NCBI GenBank assembly: GCA_903927905.1
Contig: CAIYOY010000383.1
Span: 1-64,000, forward strand
Origin: an uncultured Verrucomicrobiales bacterium
Lineage (GTDB): Bacteria; Verrucomicrobiota; Verrucomicrobiia; Limisphaerales; Palsa-1400
Reading direction: 5' to 3'
Length of the DNA: 64,000 nucleotides
Within the stretch, counting starts at the first letter, position 1. Every line of letters begins with the position of its first letter. Below, in pieces: positions 14,328-49,703 of the stretch. The position numbers and the translations under genes were made by a program. Below the pieces are notes generated by a model. The model was not told the DNA's origin. It was given only the letters and a program-made list of their open reading frames with translations, and searched no databases.

Positions 14328-15716
14328 TTACTCCAAAATTTCTTTCAAGACCCGGCCCTGGACATTTTTCATTTCCAGCCCAAGCAACGCGGCGGCGGTC
14401 GGCGCGACATCAAGGTTGTCAATGGAATCGAGCTTCACCCCTTTTTTGATGCCTGCGCCCCATGCCATGAACGAAGCCTGCATTTGCGGCATCAACGGAC
14501 TATGGCCGTGTGCGCCCAGCAACTTCGCTGATTTGGCGGTTACGAAGGTTTCTCCATCCGTCCCGTCCGAAATGGAATAATCGTCTTTGGCCGTCAGGAT
14601 CAGATCGCCCATGCGTGGATCAACATCAGGCGTCGGCAAGCCGAACTTCGCGTAATCTTTTGGTTCCAGGACCAAATCAATCCCTTCGGCACCCTTGAAC
14701 ATCGCGGCGATTTTCTTGGTCCAGGCCGGCAGATTCTTTTTGTCGTTGATATAAATGTAGCAACTGCCGCCCTGGCTGATCGAATAGGCCGGCGATTTAT
14801 TTTTCGGAACTTTGGATTTATACAAACCAGCCTGGCGCAGTTTCACATTGGGTTCGATTTTTTGGTGATAGCCGACAAAGCCATGGTCGGACGTCACAAT
14901 TATAGTGGCTTTGCCCGGATACTGGGCTGCAAGGGCGGCTTTCACTTCTTTCACCCGTTGATCGGCGGCGTGCAGCGCGGCATAAGCTTCGGGACTGCGC
15001 GGGCCGTGTTCGTGTTCCAGATGATCCACCGCGATGAGGTGCAATAAAGCCAGGCCGGGATGATGTTTGAGCGCGAGCAGAAACATTTTGGTGTACATGA
15101 GGTCGCGTTCTACGCCCATGCCGGAATTGCGCCACACTTCCTGTTTCTCAACGGGAATCCCGGCCGCCACACTCTCGGCCCATAGTTCGGGCGTGCAATA
15201 TTTTTTAAAATGTTCGTCCGTCCCGACATCAGGAATGGTCCAGTCCAACGTGTGAGCGTTGCGGCTGGCGGGCCAGAGAATGGCGGCGGTTTTAATGCCG
15301 GCATCGTGGGCCACGTCATAAATTGTTGGGGCCTTCACCAGTTCGTCTTTGTCGAAAATGGGGTCGGAGATGAGCTGGATGGTCTTGCCAGTGGAGCGTT
15401 CCCAATATTTATTGCCGATGACCCCGTGGCGATCCGGCGTGACGCCGGTCACCAGCGTGGTGTGATTCGCCCAAGTGGAGGTTGGCAGCACCGGTTTCAT
15501 GCTTTTGGCGGATGCGCCTTCAGCCATGAGCGCGTGCAAGGTGGGAATGTCCGCTTTGGGATCATCCAAATAGTACGACGCCATGCCGTCAATCGAGATG
15601 ATGACCACGATGTGACCGTCGTCTTTGGCGGCTTGCGTGAGGTTAAACGCGCCCATCAGAACCGTGACCAACAGGCAAATTTTCAATGTATATTTATTCA
15701 TCATAAGAACAGACAC
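14328..15716 (-). CDS. Alkaline phosphatase / type I phosphodiesterase-nucleotide pyrophosphatase family protein
   Basis: VVIISIDGMASYYLDDPKADIPTLHALMAEGA...STWANHTTLVTGVTPDRHGVIGN. Confidence 0.85.
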   Translation of the reverse strand: MSVLMMNKYTLKICLLVTVLMGAFNLTQAAKDDGHIVVIISIDGMASYYLDDPKADIPTLHALMAEGASAKSMKPVLPTSTWANHTTLVTGVTPDRHGVIGNKYWERSTGKTIQLISDPIFDKDELVKAPTIYDVAHDAGIKTAAILWPASRNAHTLDWTIPDVGTDEHFKKYCTPELWAESVAAGIPVEKQEVWRNSGMGVERDLMYTKMFLLALKHHPGLALLHLIAVDHLEHEHGPRSPEAYAALHAADQRVKEVKAALAAQYPGKATIIVTSDHGFVGYHQKIEPNVKLRQAGLYKSKVPKNKSPAYSISQGGSCYIYINDKKNLPAWTKKIAAMFKGAEGIDLVLEPKDYAKFGLPTPDVDPRMGDLILTAKDDYSISDGTDGETFVTAKSAKLLGAHGHSPLMPQMQASFMAWGAGIKKGVKLDSIDNLDVAPTAAALLGLEMKNVQGRVLKEILE

Positions 15717-15798: not shown

Positions 15799-15838
15799 TG
15801 CGCCAAACTTTGTAACGATTGTTACAAAGTTTGGCGCA
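15799..15838. promoter_or_regulatory. Perfect 18-bp-arm palindrome TGCGCCAAACTTTGTAAC-gatt-GTTACAAAGTTTGGCGCA
   Basis: Seen directly in the divergent intergenic region. Confidence 0.85.
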
Positions 15839-15898: not shown

Positions 15899-17734
15899 GT
15901 GTCCGCCAAACGCCACAGCCCCAAAGAACAGACGCCAGCCAAACCGGTCGCTCGTTCTTTCACAGTTCAGATCTGTTTGGGTCTCATGGTTTGCACACTG
16001 GTGGCATACTGGCATGTGACGAAGTGCGATTTCATCAGCTTCGATGATCTCAAATATGTCCGGGACAACAAAATGGTCAATATCGGGCTGACTTGGCGCG
16101 GTATTGTTTGGGCCTTCACTCATGCTTACGCGAGCAATTGGCATCCGCTCGCGTGGATCTCGCACATGATTGATGTCCAGCTTTTCGGACTGAAACCAAC
16201 GGGGCACCACTTCATCAACCTCGCGCTGCACACGACCAACAGCGTTTTAGTTTTTCTGGTGTTGAAGCGCATGACCGGCGCGCAATGGCGGAGCGCGTTT
16301 GTGGCTGGACTGTTTGCGCTCCATCCGTTGCGCGTGGAATCGGTCGCGTGGGTGGCTGAGCGAAAGGATGTCCTGTGCGGATTTTTCTGGCTGCTGACCA
16401 TTTGGTTTTATGCGGGCTACGTACAAAAGAAAACTTTAGTGGCCCAATTTTCCGCCATCGGCTGTTTCATCCTCGCGCTTCTTTCTAAACCAATGGCCGT
16501 CACCCTTCCCTGCGCCCTTCTCCTCCTAGACATCTGGCCACTCCAACGCTGGGACCCTTTCAATCCGCAATCTGCAATCCGCAATCCACAATTGTTAGAA
16601 AAGTGGCCCTTCTTCCTGCTCATCCCAGTAATGAGCGTAGTAACTTTCTTCGCCCAAAAATCCGGCGGCGCAGTCATCGCTCTAAGCTCTCTGTCCCTGC
16701 ACGATCGCTTCACCAACGCGCTCGTCTCATACGCTTCCTATGTCCGCAAAATGTTTTGGCCATCCGACCTCTCGCTTTTTTACCCACATCCCCCGCGCGG
16801 CGCAGATTGGCCGATGGAACGGATCGCGTTGGCGGCGGTTGTCCTGGTGGCCATCACGGTGGTGATGCTTTGGCAGGCAAAACGACGGGCTTATTTTGCC
16901 GTCGGTTGGTTCTGGTTTTTAGGGACGCTTTTTCCGGTGATCGGTTTTTTTCAAGTCGGGCCGCAAGCGATGGCTGATCGGTTCACGTACATTCCGATGA
17001 TCGGACTGTTTATCATCATTGCCTGGGGCGCGGTGGATTATATAAAAAAGCCGGCTGTTCTCGCTCCTGCCGCCATCGTCGTGCTGGCGTTGTGCTTTGG
17101 ATTGACCGTCAAACAAGTTGGCCACTGGGACAATTCAATCACCGTGTTCACTCACGCCATAGACGTGACCACGAATAATGCGCTCGCCCATAACAATCTT
17201 GCTTCTGCACTGGATGAACACGGCCAGTCAACTGAAGCGCGGCAGCATTATATCAAATCCCTGGAAATCGAACCCGGCTACGCTCTGGCCCACAATAATC
17301 TCGGTTACATGATCGCGATGGACGGAAAACTCGACGAAGCTATCGGCCATTTCAAAGCAGCTCTCGTGTCGGATCCTGGCTACGGCGGAGCGATGCTTAA
17401 TCTCGGCAATGCTTACGCCGTTCAAGGAAAACTCGATGAAGCCATCGCCCAATTCAAAGCCGCCATCGCCATCGAACCCGACGACAGCGACGCGCAGGAC
17501 AACCTCGGTAACGCGTTGACCCAGCAAGGCAAACTCGACGAAGCCGCGCAGCACTACACCGCGTCCATCACCAGCAATCCCAACAACAGCCAAGCGCATG
17601 TCAATTTTGGCCTTCTCCTTGTGCGCCAGGGAAAAAACGACGAAGCCCGCCAGCATTTCACCGAAGCCCTCCGTCTCAATCCCAAAGAAACCACCGCCCA
17701 AAAAGAATTGGATCTCTTGCTGAAGAAAAAATAA
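15899..17734 (+). CDS. Multi-pass membrane protein with C-terminal TPR repeats (TMTC/glycosyltransferase-like)
   Basis: HPLRVESVAWVAERKDVL motif typical of this TPR membrane family; C-terminal tandem TPRs (NNLASALDEHGQSTEARQHYIKSLEIEPGYALAHNNLGY). Confidence 0.78.
   Translation: MSAKRHSPKEQTPAKPVARSFTVQICLGLMVCTLVAYWHVTKCDFISFDDLKYVRDNKMVNIGLTWRGIVWAFTHAYASNWHPLAWISHMIDVQLFGLKPTGHHFINLALHTTNSVLVFLVLKRMTGAQWRSAFVAGLFALHPLRVESVAWVAERKDVLCGFFWLLTIWFYAGYVQKKTLVAQFSAIGCFILALLSKPMAVTLPCALLLLDIWPLQRWDPFNPQSAIRNPQLLEKWPFFLLIPVMSVVTFFAQKSGGAVIALSSLSLHDRFTNALVSYASYVRKMFWPSDLSLFYPHPPRGADWPMERIALAAVVLVAITVVMLWQAKRRAYFAVGWFWFLGTLFPVIGFFQVGPQAMADRFTYIPMIGLFIIIAWGAVDYIKKPAVLAPAAIVVLALCFGLTVKQVGHWDNSITVFTHAIDVTTNNALAHNNLASALDEHGQSTEARQHYIKSLEIEPGYALAHNNLGYMIAMDGKLDEAIGHFKAALVSDPGYGGAMLNLGNAYAVQGKLDEAIAQFKAAIAIEPDDSDAQDNLGNALTQQGKLDEAAQHYTASITSNPNNSQAHVNFGLLLVRQGKNDEARQHFTEALRLNPKETTAQKELDLLLKKK
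16561..16595. repeat. Period-7 tandem repeat (CAATCYG)n inside CDS
   Basis: CAATCCG CAATCTG CAATCCG CAATCCA CAATTGT, encodes NPQSAIRNPQLL. Confidence 0.85.
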
Positions 17735-26730: not shown

Positions 26731-28173
26731 TCACTTTCCAATACAAAACTGACTGAAGATCGAATCCAACAAATCTTCCGTGGTGGTTTTTCCGACGATT
26801 TCACCCACCGCATTGACGGCGATGCGGAGGTCAACGGCGGCGAGGTCGAGGCTGATATTTTGGCGCAAGGCGGTGGCGGTGCGTTCGACGCCGATGCGCG
26901 CGCGGTTCAAGGCTTCTTGATGGCGGGCGTTGATCATCACTTGCAACATCTCGGAATGGATTTCTCCGGCCCAGACCAATTGTTTGATGGCGTCTTTCAG
27001 ATCTTCCAAGCCTTTGCCGGTCAGGCAGCAGAGGCGTATGGTGGCGGGAGTGGCTTTTTGACTAAAATCCTCACCTCTCCCCGGCCCTCTCCCCTCCATC
27101 GGATGGAGCGGAGAGGGAGAAGATGTTAAGGCCGGCAATGTCAGACGAGTGGGCAGATCGGTTTTATTTTGGACGAGGATGCGTTTTTTGGCGGAAAATT
27201 CGGCGAGAAGCTTTTCGTCGGAAGCGGAAAGGGGTTCGGAACCATCCAGCACATGCAAAATGAGTTCGGCGGCATCAAGGCTTTGGCGGCTGCGGCGGAT
27301 GCCTTCGATCTCGATTTCATCGGCTGAATCGCGCAGGCCAGCGGTGTCTATGAAAACGATGGGCAACCCTCGGATGTTGGCCGTTTCCTCGATGGTATCG
27401 CGCGTGGTGCCGGGAATGGGCGAAACGATGGCGCGATCGCGACCGAGTAATTGATTCAGGAGGCTGGATTTGCCCACGTTGGGTCTGCCGACAATCGCCG
27501 CGCGGATGCCTCGGCGCAAAATTTGGCCTTCATTGGCCGTGCGCAGCAATTCCGCCATGAATTTTTCCGCTGCGCGCAATTTTTCGATCAACTTGTCTTT
27601 GGTGTCCGGCGCGATGTCTTCATCGGGAAAATCTATGTGCGCTTCGACGTGCGCGAGGACTTTAATCAGGTCATCGCGCAAAAGATTGATGCGTTGAGAA
27701 AGTTTGCCGGCGAGTTGCTCGTTGGCGGCGGCGAGGGCGAGTTCGGTGCGGGAATGGATCAGGTCGGCCACGGCTTCTGCCTGGGTGAGATCAATCCGGC
27801 CATTGAGAAAAGCGCGGCGGGTAAATTCGCCGGGTTGGGCCAGGCGTGCGCCGTTTTCCAAAAGCGTTTCCAAAACCATCTTGGCCGGGAGCAATCCACC
27901 GTGACAGGCGATCTCCACCACATCCTCACGGGTAAAAGTGCGCGGGGCGCGCATGACACTGAGCAGCACTTCATCCACCACTTGGCCGCGATGGATAATT
28001 TTCCCGAAATGAATGGTGTGGGTCGCGGCGGCGGTCGGCTTTTGTGAAAACTTACCAGCCGGTTGGAAACAAGCCTCAGCAATAGCAAGCGAGTGAGGTC
28101 CCGAAACACGCAGCACAGCCAGCCCACCTTCTCCCAAAGGGGTAGCGATAGCGGCGATAGTTTCGGTAAACAT
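26731..28173 (-). CDS. mnmE: tRNA modification GTPase MnmE (TrmE)
   Basis: TIAAIATPLGEGGLAVLRVSG; GRPNVGKSSLLNQLLGRDRAIVSPIPGTTRDTIEE; C-terminal CIGK. Confidence 0.95.
   Translation of the reverse strand: MFTETIAAIATPLGEGGLAVLRVSGPHSLAIAEACFQPAGKFSQKPTAAATHTIHFGKIIHRGQVVDEVLLSVMRAPRTFTREDVVEIACHGGLLPAKMVLETLLENGARLAQPGEFTRRAFLNGRIDLTQAEAVADLIHSRTELALAAANEQLAGKLSQRINLLRDDLIKVLAHVEAHIDFPDEDIAPDTKDKLIEKLRAAEKFMAELLRTANEGQILRRGIRAAIVGRPNVGKSSLLNQLLGRDRAIVSPIPGTTRDTIEETANIRGLPIVFIDTAGLRDSADEIEIEGIRRSRQSLDAAELILHVLDGSEPLSASDEKLLAEFSAKKRILVQNKTDLPTRLTLPALTSSPSPLHPMEGRGPGRGEDFSQKATPATIRLCCLTGKGLEDLKDAIKQLVWAGEIHSEMLQVMINARHQEALNRARIGVERTATALRQNISLDLAAVDLRIAVNAVGEIVGKTTTEDLLDSIFSQFCIGK
27069..27131. 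repeat. Palindromic repeat inserted in frame in mnmE
   Basis: CCTCACCTCTCCCCGGCCCTCTCCCCTCCATCGGATGGAGCGGAGAGGGAG hairpin; related copy at 34989-35022. Confidence 0.8.
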
Positions 28174-46256: not shown

Positions 46257-48158
46257 ATGACTAACGGCCCCATTCGCGTCCTGCTGGTGGATGATGATGA
46301 AGATGATTACATCATCACGCGGGATCTTTTCAGCGAATTGGACGCGAAGTCGTATCAGTTGGACTGGGTCAAAACTTATGAAGCCGGGCTGGAAGCGATG
46401 ATCCGGCGGCAACACGATGTTTGCATCGTTGATTTTTTTCTCGGCGCGCGCACCGGACTGGATCTCCTCAAACAAGCCAAATCTTACGGTGCCCAGGCCC
46501 CGATCATCCTGTTGACCGGCCAGGGCGACCATAGCGTGGACTTGGATGCCATGCGCGCCGGGGCGGAGGATTTTTTGGTGAAAGGCCAGATCACCGCCAA
46601 ATGGCTCGAGCGCGCCATCCGTTACGCCATTGAACGCAATCGGGCCGAGGAAAAAATCCAGAAGCTCGCGGCCTTTCCCCGGACTAATCCCAATCCAGTG
46701 CTGGAGTTCAGCGCCGAAGGGAAGATGACTTACAGCAATGACGCAGCCCAGCGCATGGCGGCGTCGCTCGGCAAGGACTCCCTGCTGCCCGCGCTGCCGC
46801 CGGACACGCAAATCATCATCGTGGAGTGCCTCCTGTCCGGCCAAAATAAAATCAACCTCCAGACCTCGCAGCAGGGGCGCACCATCTCCTGGTCGTTCAT
46901 CCCGAATACCGCGAGCAAGACGGTGCATTGTTACGCCAATGAAATCACCGACCGTTTGAACCTGGAAGCGCAACTGCGCCATTCGGTCAAGATGGAAGCC
47001 ATCGGCCAGTTGGCCGCCGGCGTGGCCCATGATTTTAATAACATTCTCACGGTCATTCAGGGACATGCCGACCTGTTGCTGCACTCGCCCAAGGTGACGC
47101 CGGAAACGGAAAAGCCCCTGCTGCAAATTTGCCAGGCCTCGGAACGGGCCGGCAAACTGATCAAGCAACTGCTCATGTTCAGCCGCAAACAGGTCCTGCA
47201 ATTGCGCTTCGTGGATGTGAATGAGATCATCAGCAATGTCAGCAAGATGTTGCAACGCCTGCTCGGCGAACATGTCCAATTTGACTTTATCCAGGGCCAG
47301 AACCTGGCCCCCATTTATGCCGACGTCGGCATGATCGAGCAAATCCTCCTCAATCTTTCAATCAATGCGCGCGATGCCATGCCCGGCGGCGGACGCCTGA
47401 TCATCAGCACGGCACAGGTGGTCTTGGAGCCGATGGCTTCGATCCTGAATCCCGAGGCGCGCCCCGGCAATTTCATCTGCCTCAGTGTCAAAGATACGGG
47501 TTGCGGGATGGACCATGCGACCCTGCATCATCTCTTCGAGCCGTTCTTCACCACGAAAGAAACCGGCAAGGGCACCGGCCTGGGGCTGGCCACGGTCTAT
47601 GGCATTGTCAAACAGCATCAGGGCTGGATCGTGGTGGACAGCCAGCTCAATGCCGGCTCGACCTTTTCCATTTTTCTGCCCAGCGCGGCGCGCGAAACCG
47701 CCACGGTTGCGCCGGAAGCGCCGGAAGCCAGGCCGACCGTGCCCGGCGGCCATGAGACCATTTTGGTGGTGGAGGATGAATCGGCCTTGCGAGAATTGGT
47801 GGTCAGCATTCTTGAGCTTTACGGTTACAAGATCTATCAGGCTGAAACCGGGGTGGCCGCGCTGAAAGTTTGGGAAAAACACAAAGATGAAATTGACCTT
47901 CTATTGACTGACATGGTCATGCCGGAAGGGATTTCAGGACGGCAATTGGCCGAGCGCTTGCACCAGGAAGATCCCGAACTGAAAGTCATCTATACCAGCG
48001 GTTACAGTCCGGGCATGGCGGGCAAGGACATCGCTTTGCTGGAAGGGTTTAATTTCCTGGCCAAACCGTATCCGCCCAATCGTCTGGCCCAGGTGGTCCG
48101 CGAATGTCTCGACGGGGTCAAAAAGGGCCACACGGAATTATACCGGAAAAACAAGTGA
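46257..48158 (+). CDS. REC-(PAS)-HK-REC hybrid histidine kinase
   Basis: N-term [49 protein letters not shown]-term LLTDMVMPEGISG. Confidence 0.92.
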   Translation: MTNGPIRVLLVDDDEDDYIITRDLFSELDAKSYQLDWVKTYEAGLEAMIRRQHDVCIVDFFLGARTGLDLLKQAKSYGAQAPIILLTGQGDHSVDLDAMRAGAEDFLVKGQITAKWLERAIRYAIERNRAEEKIQKLAAFPRTNPNPVLEFSAEGKMTYSNDAAQRMAASLGKDSLLPALPPDTQIIIVECLLSGQNKINLQTSQQGRTISWSFIPNTASKTVHCYANEITDRLNLEAQLRHSVKMEAIGQLAAGVAHDFNNILTVIQGHADLLLHSPKVTPETEKPLLQICQASERAGKLIKQLLMFSRKQVLQLRFVDVNEIISNVSKMLQRLLGEHVQFDFIQGQNLAPIYADVGMIEQILLNLSINARDAMPGGGRLIISTAQVVLEPMASILNPEARPGNFICLSVKDTGCGMDHATLHHLFEPFFTTKETGKGTGLGLATVYGIVKQHQGWIVVDSQLNAGSTFSIFLPSAARETATVAPEAPEARPTVPGGHETILVVEDESALRELVVSILELYGYKIYQAETGVAALKVWEKHKDEIDLLLTDMVMPEGISGRQLAERLHQEDPELKVIYTSGYSPGMAGKDIALLEGFNFLAKPYPPNRLAQVVRECLDGVKKGHTELYRKNK

Positions 48159-48284: not shown

Positions 48285-48318
48285 GCAATTCCATGTAACA
48301 TATGTTACATGGAATTGC
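48285..48318. promoter_or_regulatory. Perfect 34-bp palindrome GCAATTCCATGTAACATATGTTACATGGAATTGC
   Basis: Seen directly; upstream of pfk. Confidence 0.9.
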
Positions 48319-48431: not shown

Positions 48432-49703
48432 ATGGCAGAATTAATCGGAAATCTTTTAGTCGCCCAATCAGGCGGGCCCACCGCCGTGATCAACGCCAGC
48501 GTTGCCGGCGTCGTGCAGGAAGCCAAAAAACACGCCTGCATCAAAGGCATTTACGGCGGCATGAACGGCATCCTCGGAATTCTCAACGAGCAGTTGATGG
48601 ATCTGCGCGCGGAAAAGGATGAGGTCATTGAAGCGCTAAAGCACACTCCCGCCGCCGCGTTGGGCACCTGCCGTTACAAGATCGATTTTAAAAAGAAACC
48701 GGAAAAAGCAGCCAAAGACATGGATCGGTTGTTCCAGGTTTTTGAGGCGCACGACATCCATTTTTTCTTTTATGCCGGAGGCAATGATTCGCAGGACACA
48801 GCCGATAAAATTCACGGAGAAGCGATCAAGCGCGGGTATGAGATGCGGGTCATCGGGGTGCCGAAGACGATTGATAATGATTTGCCGCATACGGACCATT
48901 GCCCGGGATTTGGCTCGGTGGCGAAATATAATGCCACCACGGTGATGGAAATCGCCACCGACGTCAGCAGCATGGCGACGGATGACGGGGCTTGTTGCGT
49001 GGTGGAGGTGATGGGACGCGGGGCGGGCTGGATCGCGGCCAGCACGGTTTTGGCGCAACGCGCGCCCGGTGATGCGCCGCATATCATTTTGTTGCCGGAA
49101 ATTCCGTTTAATGAAGCGGCCTTTTTGGCCAAGGTGAAATCGGTCGTGGCCAAGCTGCGCTACTGCGTGGTGGTGGTCGGCGAAGGGTTGAAGAAGGAAG
49201 ACGGCACTGAATTCAGCGCGGACACGACTCGCTTGGACGCGTTCGGCCACCCGGTGCTTTCCGGCGCGGCGGAGCGGTTGGCGGAAATTGTTTACGGGAA
49301 ATTGAACACCAAAACGCGTTCGGTGAAGCTCGGTTACGCCCAACGCTGCGCTGCGCATTACGCCAGCGCCACCGATGCGGCGGAAGCGGCCGCCTGCGGT
49401 GAAGCAGCGGTGCGAGCGGCCACCGAAGGCAAGAGCGGTTACATGGTGAAGATCGTTCGCACGCAACAATCTCCTTATAAATGGAAAACCGATCTGCAAC
49501 CGCTGAAAGACATCGCCAACGTCGAGCATTTCATCCCGCGCGATTGGATCAGCGCGGATGGGTTCATGCCGAACGAAAAATTTGTGGACTATGCGCGTCC
49601 GTTGATCGAAGGAGAAACAAAAGTCCCGACCGAAGGAGGCTTGCCCAAATTCGCCGTGCTGGAAAAGAAGCAATTGCCGAAAACGCTGGGGAAGAGAAGT
49701 TAA
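48432..49703 (+). CDS. 6-phosphofructokinase (probably PPi-type)
   Basis: LLVAQSGGPTAVINASVAG; YAGGNDSQDTADKI; GVPKTIDNDLPHTDHCPGFGS; start at internal MAELIGN. Confidence 0.88.
   Translation: MAELIGNLLVAQSGGPTAVINASVAGVVQEAKKHACIKGIYGGMNGILGILNEQLMDLRAEKDEVIEALKHTPAAALGTCRYKIDFKKKPEKAAKDMDRLFQVFEAHDIHFFFYAGGNDSQDTADKIHGEAIKRGYEMRVIGVPKTIDNDLPHTDHCPGFGSVAKYNATTVMEIATDVSSMATDDGACCVVEVMGRGAGWIAASTVLAQRAPGDAPHIILLPEIPFNEAAFLAKVKSVVAKLRYCVVVVGEGLKKEDGTEFSADTTRLDAFGHPVLSGAAERLAEIVYGKLNTKTRSVKLGYAQRCAAHYASATDAAEAAACGEAAVRAATEGKSGYMVKIVRTQQSPYKWKTDLQPLKDIANVEHFIPRDWISADGFMPNEKFVDYARPLIEGETKVPTEGGLPKFAVLEKKQLPKTLGKRS

Follow-up and report, generated by a model that had tools for sequence, protein, structure and literature searches.

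The window, that is, the whole 64,000-bp stretch of DNA analysed here, corresponds to contig C383 of the genome of an uncultured Verrucomicrobiales bacterium (G000, hereafter the host genome; 4.74 Mb in 427 contigs, ∼81% complete). Only two palindromes with perfect arms of ≥10 bp and loops of ≤12 are present in the window (Table 1). The first one lies in the gap between the stop codon of a sensor kinase gene (48158) and the ATG of the phosphofructokinase gene (pfk; 48432). As reported in the preliminary description of this DNA, it is fully self-complementary, with 17-bp arms and no loop (GCAATTCCATGTAACATATGTTACATGGAATTGC); the expectation for a perfect 34-bp palindrome in 64 kb is ∼4e-6 (4^-17 × 64000), and the predicted fold is a 15-bp stem with a 4-nt loop. 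The second one is located between two divergent genes around 15.8 kb, and its family-wide portion, as described below, is the 34 bp at positions 15802–15835. No match to Rfam families was found in the window. A third palindrome (27085–27117; CCCTCTCCCCTCC...GGAGAGGG) is G+C-rich and imperfect. Since very similar palindromes (CCCTCTCCCC...GGGGAGAGGG) are present in the Verrucomicrobiota loci L184, L185 and L239, it probably represents another type of dispersed repeat or terminator.

Table 1. Palindromes and adjoining genes in the window
Feature	Position	Strand	Remarks
Type I phosphodiesterase/nucleotide pyrophosphatase-like gene	14328..15716	-	Beside the family A palindrome; PF01663, E 4.4e-54
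Family A palindrome	15799..15838	.	40 bp; 18-bp arms, 4-nt centre GATT
Core of family A palindrome	15811..15826	.	TGTAACGATTGTTACA
TPR protein gene, glycosyltransferase-like N-terminal part	15899..17734	+	TPR families, weak PF13231; start codon uncertain
Hybrid sensor kinase/response regulator gene	46257..48158	+	Upstream of the family B palindrome; PF00512, PF02518, PF00072
Family B palindrome	48285..48318	.	Perfect 34 bp; 113 bp before the pfk ATG
Core of family B palindrome	48294..48309	.	TGTAACATATGTTACA
Phosphofructokinase gene (pfk)	48432..49703	+	Downstream of the family B palindrome; PF00365, E 1.8e-55

The two palindromes have the same TGTAAC-N4-GTTACA dyad at their cores, a match that had also been recognized correctly in the preliminary description. 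With ≤2 mismatches allowed, the core was found three times in the window (0.67 expected). Random frequency had been named there as a possible objection to the core, and the exact core occurs six times in the whole host genome, against one occurrence of the reversed control. The operators of the CRP/FNR and BlaI/MecI/CopY types (TGTnA-N6-TnACA, TACAnnTGTA), which we take to resemble this core, were dropped as candidates once PaaX-like genes bracketed by the palindromes had been found (see below).

Pattern searches of the host genome revealed that each palindrome is a member of a dispersed repeat family. Five of the six exact-core sites, including the 15.8-kb copy, are an identical 34-bp palindrome (GCCAAACTTTGTAACRATYGTTACAAAGTTTGGC), and two additional copies contain one or two changes, giving seven copies of this family (family A). 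A search allowing changes detected 17 copies close to GCARNNNNRTGTWACATATGTWACAYNNNNYTGC, among which is the pfk element (family B). These copy numbers are lower bounds, because the host genome is incomplete and fragmented. Both families have a length of exactly 34 bp and GC...GC ends, and the outer arms, previously regarded as unrelated, are in each case the signature of a separate family. The family B core was also found 10 times in the related genome G052, with no match of the reversed control. In the family B copies, which are not fully independent of each other, variable positions of the arms are mutually complementary in 70 of 102 cases, compared with 48.8 ± 5.6 by random half-site pairing (P = 1e-4); the variable core position is complementary in 8 of the 17 copies (8.7 expected) and thus shows no pairing constraint. 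This suggests that arm pairing matters, or that one arm is copied from the other, and that the core may be read as sequence.

Apart from the palindrome itself, no common flanks or tag of the A and B copies were found in the host genome, and no T-run follows any of them. Pairs of copies are limited to four (period 37–48). A placement in promoters, which had been expected of these elements, applies to part of the copies: 11 of the 20 that could be classified, using a simple ORF caller, are in divergent intergenic regions. Because there are no common flanks and divergent regions are favoured, some A and B copies may serve as operators in the host genome. The genes adjoining the copies are functionally mixed, which does not fit the previously proposed joint control of glycolysis and the 15.8-kb divergon. 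An effect on pfk is possible but unsupported, and would be a by-product, perhaps a co-opted one.

By profile search, exactly two genes encoding proteins with the PaaX_M domain (a Cas2-like central domain) were found in the host genome. The gene on contig C418 is bracketed by family A palindromes (1589–1622 and 2524–2557), and that on contig C398 has a family B palindrome on one side (1264–1297) and a pair of them on the other (2149–2182/2196–2229). G052 has a single PaaX-like gene, immediately preceded by one of its ten B-type sites. The view that one transcription factor acts on both palindromes is therefore abandoned, because there are two families and each flanks a different PaaX-like paralogue as its cognate gene. 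The dyad as a regulator site survives in the sense that it occurs above chance, lies between genes and is most likely a protein recognition site; the single factor does not. Adjoining the A-bracketed gene on C418 (locus L005, 2650–4413), there is a gene for a 587-aa protein that reads as a fusion of an acetyltransferase-type domain with an aminotransferase.

Both proteins match PF20803 strongly (PaaX_M; E 2.6e-17 and 4e-17) and PF08223 weakly. Their predicted layout comprises an N-terminal DNA-binding part, a central Cas2-like domain and a PaaX-type C-terminal part. Both fall short of the PaaX equivalog (57 bits against a cut-off of 264.55 bits) and are thus PaaX-like, but not PaaX. No conserved paa-type neighbours of the PaaX-like genes were found. 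The best solved relatives by sequence and fold are Escherichia coli PaaX (8A39) and Rv0674 (3KFW), followed weakly by Cas2 proteins; the confidence of the structure model, for which 14 sequences were used, is moderate (pLDDT 68), and the N-terminal winged helix is not confidently modelled. An aspartate in an FDxP motif, which 59 of the 60 aligned sequences have but E. coli PaaX and Rv0674 lack, is taken to be at the position of the first-strand aspartate of Cas2, which is a hint, though not proof, of nuclease activity. The similarity to E. coli PaaX covers most of the protein length in sequence and fold, and extends to the site: the inverted repeat bound by E. coli PaaX (TGATTC-N27-GAATCA) spans 39 bp (PMC9493321), close to the 34–40 bp of the A and B palindromes. 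In contrast to E. coli PaaX, however, the proteins described here are unlinked to paa genes, retain the FDxP aspartate, and are encoded by genes that have palindromes on both sides together with dispersed copies elsewhere.

In 97 genomes of the same order, PaaX-like genes often have long palindromes upstream and directly downstream, with sequences that are different but related. One of these genomes, G030, contains four PaaX-like paralogues, each with its own palindrome. The same pairing recurs in a sample of 80 PaaX-like loci from a scan of GTDB genomes, the titles of which refer to Verrucomicrobia, Limisphaerales, Opitutales, Akkermansiaceae, Kiritimatiellae and alike (three are labelled only 'bacterium'). 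A long palindrome is present ≤200 bp from the gene in 62 of the 80 loci (46 have one upstream, 49 downstream and 33 both); the remaining 18 have none that passes the threshold. Palindromes number 3.10 per kb close to the gene, compared with 0.034 per kb in the rest of these loci, a 93-fold difference. The upstream and downstream palindromes of the same locus are 91% identical over 26 bp, compared with 51% for palindromes of different loci (P < 1e-4). The similarity of the palindromes also tracks that of the PaaX-like proteins (Mantel r 0.47). Palindrome sequences thus differ between genomes though matched within a locus, as expected if the protein and its own recognition sequence diverge together. 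We also observed that palindromes reach 60 bp at L190 (upstream of the PaaX-like gene) and at L247 (downstream; perfect), and that the outer arms at these two loci differ between copies yet stay self-complementary. At ∼1412 of L008, a locus of the relative G044, in the genome of which no PaaX-like gene was detected, TGTAACAATTGTTACA forms the centre of a near-perfect palindrome of 46 bp.

The arrangement around the gene is also informative. The upstream copy is placed just before the start codon. The downstream copy is mostly ≤15 bp from the stop codon, with a convergently oriented gene following in 30 of 46 cases. Autorepression calls for a site upstream of the gene; a simple operator is insufficient to account for a second copy at the stop codon that mostly faces a convergent gene. 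The PaaX-like loci have no conserved gene neighbours, the commonest neighbour family being present at 5 of 82 loci. Apart from paaX, one pair of dprA genes (73% identity) and distant family relatives such as sulfatases, no target genes were found to be shared between genomes. A regulon conserved across genomes is thus not apparent.

Dispersed copies are more numerous in several relatives. Sequences matching TTTGTNNCATATGNNACAAA with ≤1 mismatch were found 71, 24, 23 and 20 times in G047, G093, G041 and G030, respectively, and the reversed control had no match in the 97 genomes. In G047, many copies form doublets with an exact period of 76 bp, and periods of 119–121 bp are also present. The spacers of 15 of the 76-bp doublets are homologous (mean identity 49%, compared with ≤29% for shuffled spacers). 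A doublet of like kind directly follows the PaaX-like gene of this genome (spacer similarity 0.50; null maximum 0.46). The G047 copies are mostly in convergent or tandem gaps, only one being in a divergent region. In G041 and G030, the palindromes are inside longer homologous dispersed repeats; the 23 copies of the TTTGTCGCATATGCGACAAA palindrome in G041 (L275–L281) are found in repeats of >180 bp, and a separate repeat with GGCAAAGGAATGGAGGCAAAGGAATG, recurring in intergenic DNA, is present beside the palindromes at L275 and L276.

The conservation of these elements in relatives, which had been left as a question, turned out to be twofold: the gene–palindrome pairing is phylum-wide, but individual copies can be missing. 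In G084, a congener of G041 in a genus other than that of the host, the palindrome is absent from all four orthologous intergenic regions, the flanking DNA of which is ∼81–95% identical; in one of them, the unaligned gap is 205 bp compared with 439 bp in G041. No clean empty site was found in the congeners G084 and G080, in which the flanking genes align (72–95%) but the intergenic DNA is too diverged to align, and no target-site or flank duplication above background was detected at the paaX cassettes. The pairing is not absolute, because no PaaX-like gene was detected in G041, a 96%-complete genome, or in G074, which has five copies. Gene loss or incomplete assembly may account for this; the G041 copies would be orphans, or their gene absent from the assembled sequence.

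We consider it rather probable that these are REPtron-like cassettes, in which a PaaX/Cas2-like protein, instead of a Y1 transposase, recognizes palindromes that spread through the genome. The pfk palindrome would be one copy of family B, with its cognate PaaX-like protein encoded on C398, and the 15.8-kb palindrome a copy of family A, with the second paralogue on C418 as the cognate protein; the palindrome–paaX-like gene–palindrome cassette would be the REPtron-like unit. The protein, probably as a dimer covering ∼34–40 bp, would bind the palindromes of its own family and would repress itself through them, and the palindromes would spread to intergenic places with the participation of this protein, alone or as palindrome–spacer–palindrome doublets. 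This reading is supported by the finding that the only two PaaX_M genes of the host genome are located one inside A and the other inside B palindromes, and by the frequency of the pairing, the within-locus match and the tracking of the protein in the phylum sample. It is further supported by the downstream copy at the stop codon, the unconserved neighbours, the dispersed copies and doublets, the more extended homology of flanks in G041 and G030, the absence of copies in G084, and the lack of such palindromes at Y1 loci (see below). Several findings count against it, namely the lack of a clean empty site and of target-site duplications, the absence of shared flanks and the operator-like preference for divergent regions among the host A and B copies, the apparent absence of the gene from G041 and G074, and the 18 loci without a palindrome. 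Furthermore, the function of classical PaaX proteins is repression and not mobility. On the sequence comparisons, recognition of the palindromes by the PaaX-like protein is very likely, and mobility of the palindromes is likely but unproven. They may be spread by the PaaX-like protein or be operators multiplied in another way. We offer only tentatively, as a possibility on the doubtful side, the stronger proposal that a PaaX/Cas2-like protein with a Cas2-type aspartate both recognizes and mobilizes perfect palindromes, singly or as palindrome–spacer–palindrome units.

An alternative that we regard as unlikely, though deserving serious attention, is that two PaaX-type repressors act as broad regulators with the palindromes as their operators, without any mobility. 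In the host genome, B copies are near pfk, aconitase, rhamnose isomerase, dsbD and other genes, and the excess of divergent regions and lack of shared flanks are as this explanation predicts, as are the repressor function of PaaX members, the palindrome-like 39-bp span of the E. coli site (PMC9493321) and the copy just before the paaX start codon. However, it does not account for the second copy after the stop codon, for the fixed-period doublets with homologous spacers and the longer shared flanks in other genomes, or for arm positions that pair beyond half-site conservation. The convergent or tandem gaps occupied by most G047 copies, the lack of target genes common to genomes and the absence from the congener G084 also argue against it.

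It is very improbable that Y1 transposases (RAYT) have spread the palindromes as ordinary REP elements, the PaaX-like gene being adjacent by coincidence or as a passenger. Y1_Tnp proteins are encoded in all 13 genomes tested, the doublets resemble REPINs, and GTAG-type REPs have been reported in the verrucomicrobium O. terrae (PMC3733652). Nevertheless, the same scan of 20 Y1 loci (60 kb) detected only one palindrome, of unrelated sequence, in contrast to the enrichment at PaaX-like loci; Y1 genes are equally frequent in palindrome-poor genomes (G080 and G084), and the palindrome sequence tracks the PaaX-like protein. A classical RAYT/REP system was thus rejected. Least probable of all is a function as RNA-level hairpins (terminators or processing signals), which the strong hairpins, the arm covariation and the position just after the paaX stop codon would suit, but which is argued against by the lack of T-runs (excluding intrinsic terminators), the copies upstream of genes and in divergent regions, the lack of Rfam matches in the window and the unconstrained core position, and which leaves the pairing with PaaX-like proteins unexplained.

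REPtrons, consisting of REP/REPIN sequences and TnpA-REP (RAYT) (PMC3116915, PMC8266576, PMC2817692), resemble the cassettes described here in that palindromes bracket one gene, further copies are dispersed between genes (both single and as spaced doublets), palindromes and proteins diverge together, and there are several paralogous sets per genome; the constant-spacing doublets of G047 are a particular similarity to REPINs. They differ in that the protein here is PaaX/Cas2-like (PaaX_M, PF20803), not an HUH Y1 transposase, and in that the palindromes are mostly perfect and longer (34–60 bp), are present in ∼7–71 copies, as opposed to often >100 in REP systems, and, in families A and B, lack the GTAG or CGTC end tag. 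Miniature inverted-repeat transposable elements (MITEs) are likewise short, non-autonomous dispersed repeats of inverted structure, and the homologous spacers in G047 and the homologous copies in unrelated places in G047, G030 and G041 are similar to them. Unlike MITEs, however, no transposase with matching ends was identified and no target-site duplication was seen at the paaX cassettes, and in the host genome the homology between A or B copies stops at the palindrome itself. We found no published description of PaaX-linked palindromes in Verrucomicrobiota in a full-text collection with few subscription journals.

These results indicate that the arrangement known from REP and RAYT, in which a gene is bracketed by its own dispersed palindromes, occurs around a non-Y1 protein as well, and they offer a particular protein family as the explanation for the long perfect palindromes of Verrucomicrobiota genomes. 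They also provide protein–DNA pairs that can be tested, two in the host genome and four in G030. The question raised is whether PaaX/Cas2-like proteins are capable of mobilizing DNA, or whether the operator of a repressor can spread through the action of the repressor itself. If the stronger, tentative proposal is true, the cassettes would be functionally equivalent to RAYT/REPIN, though with a protein of unrelated fold, and a repressor family could be linked to the Cas2 line of DNA-handling proteins.
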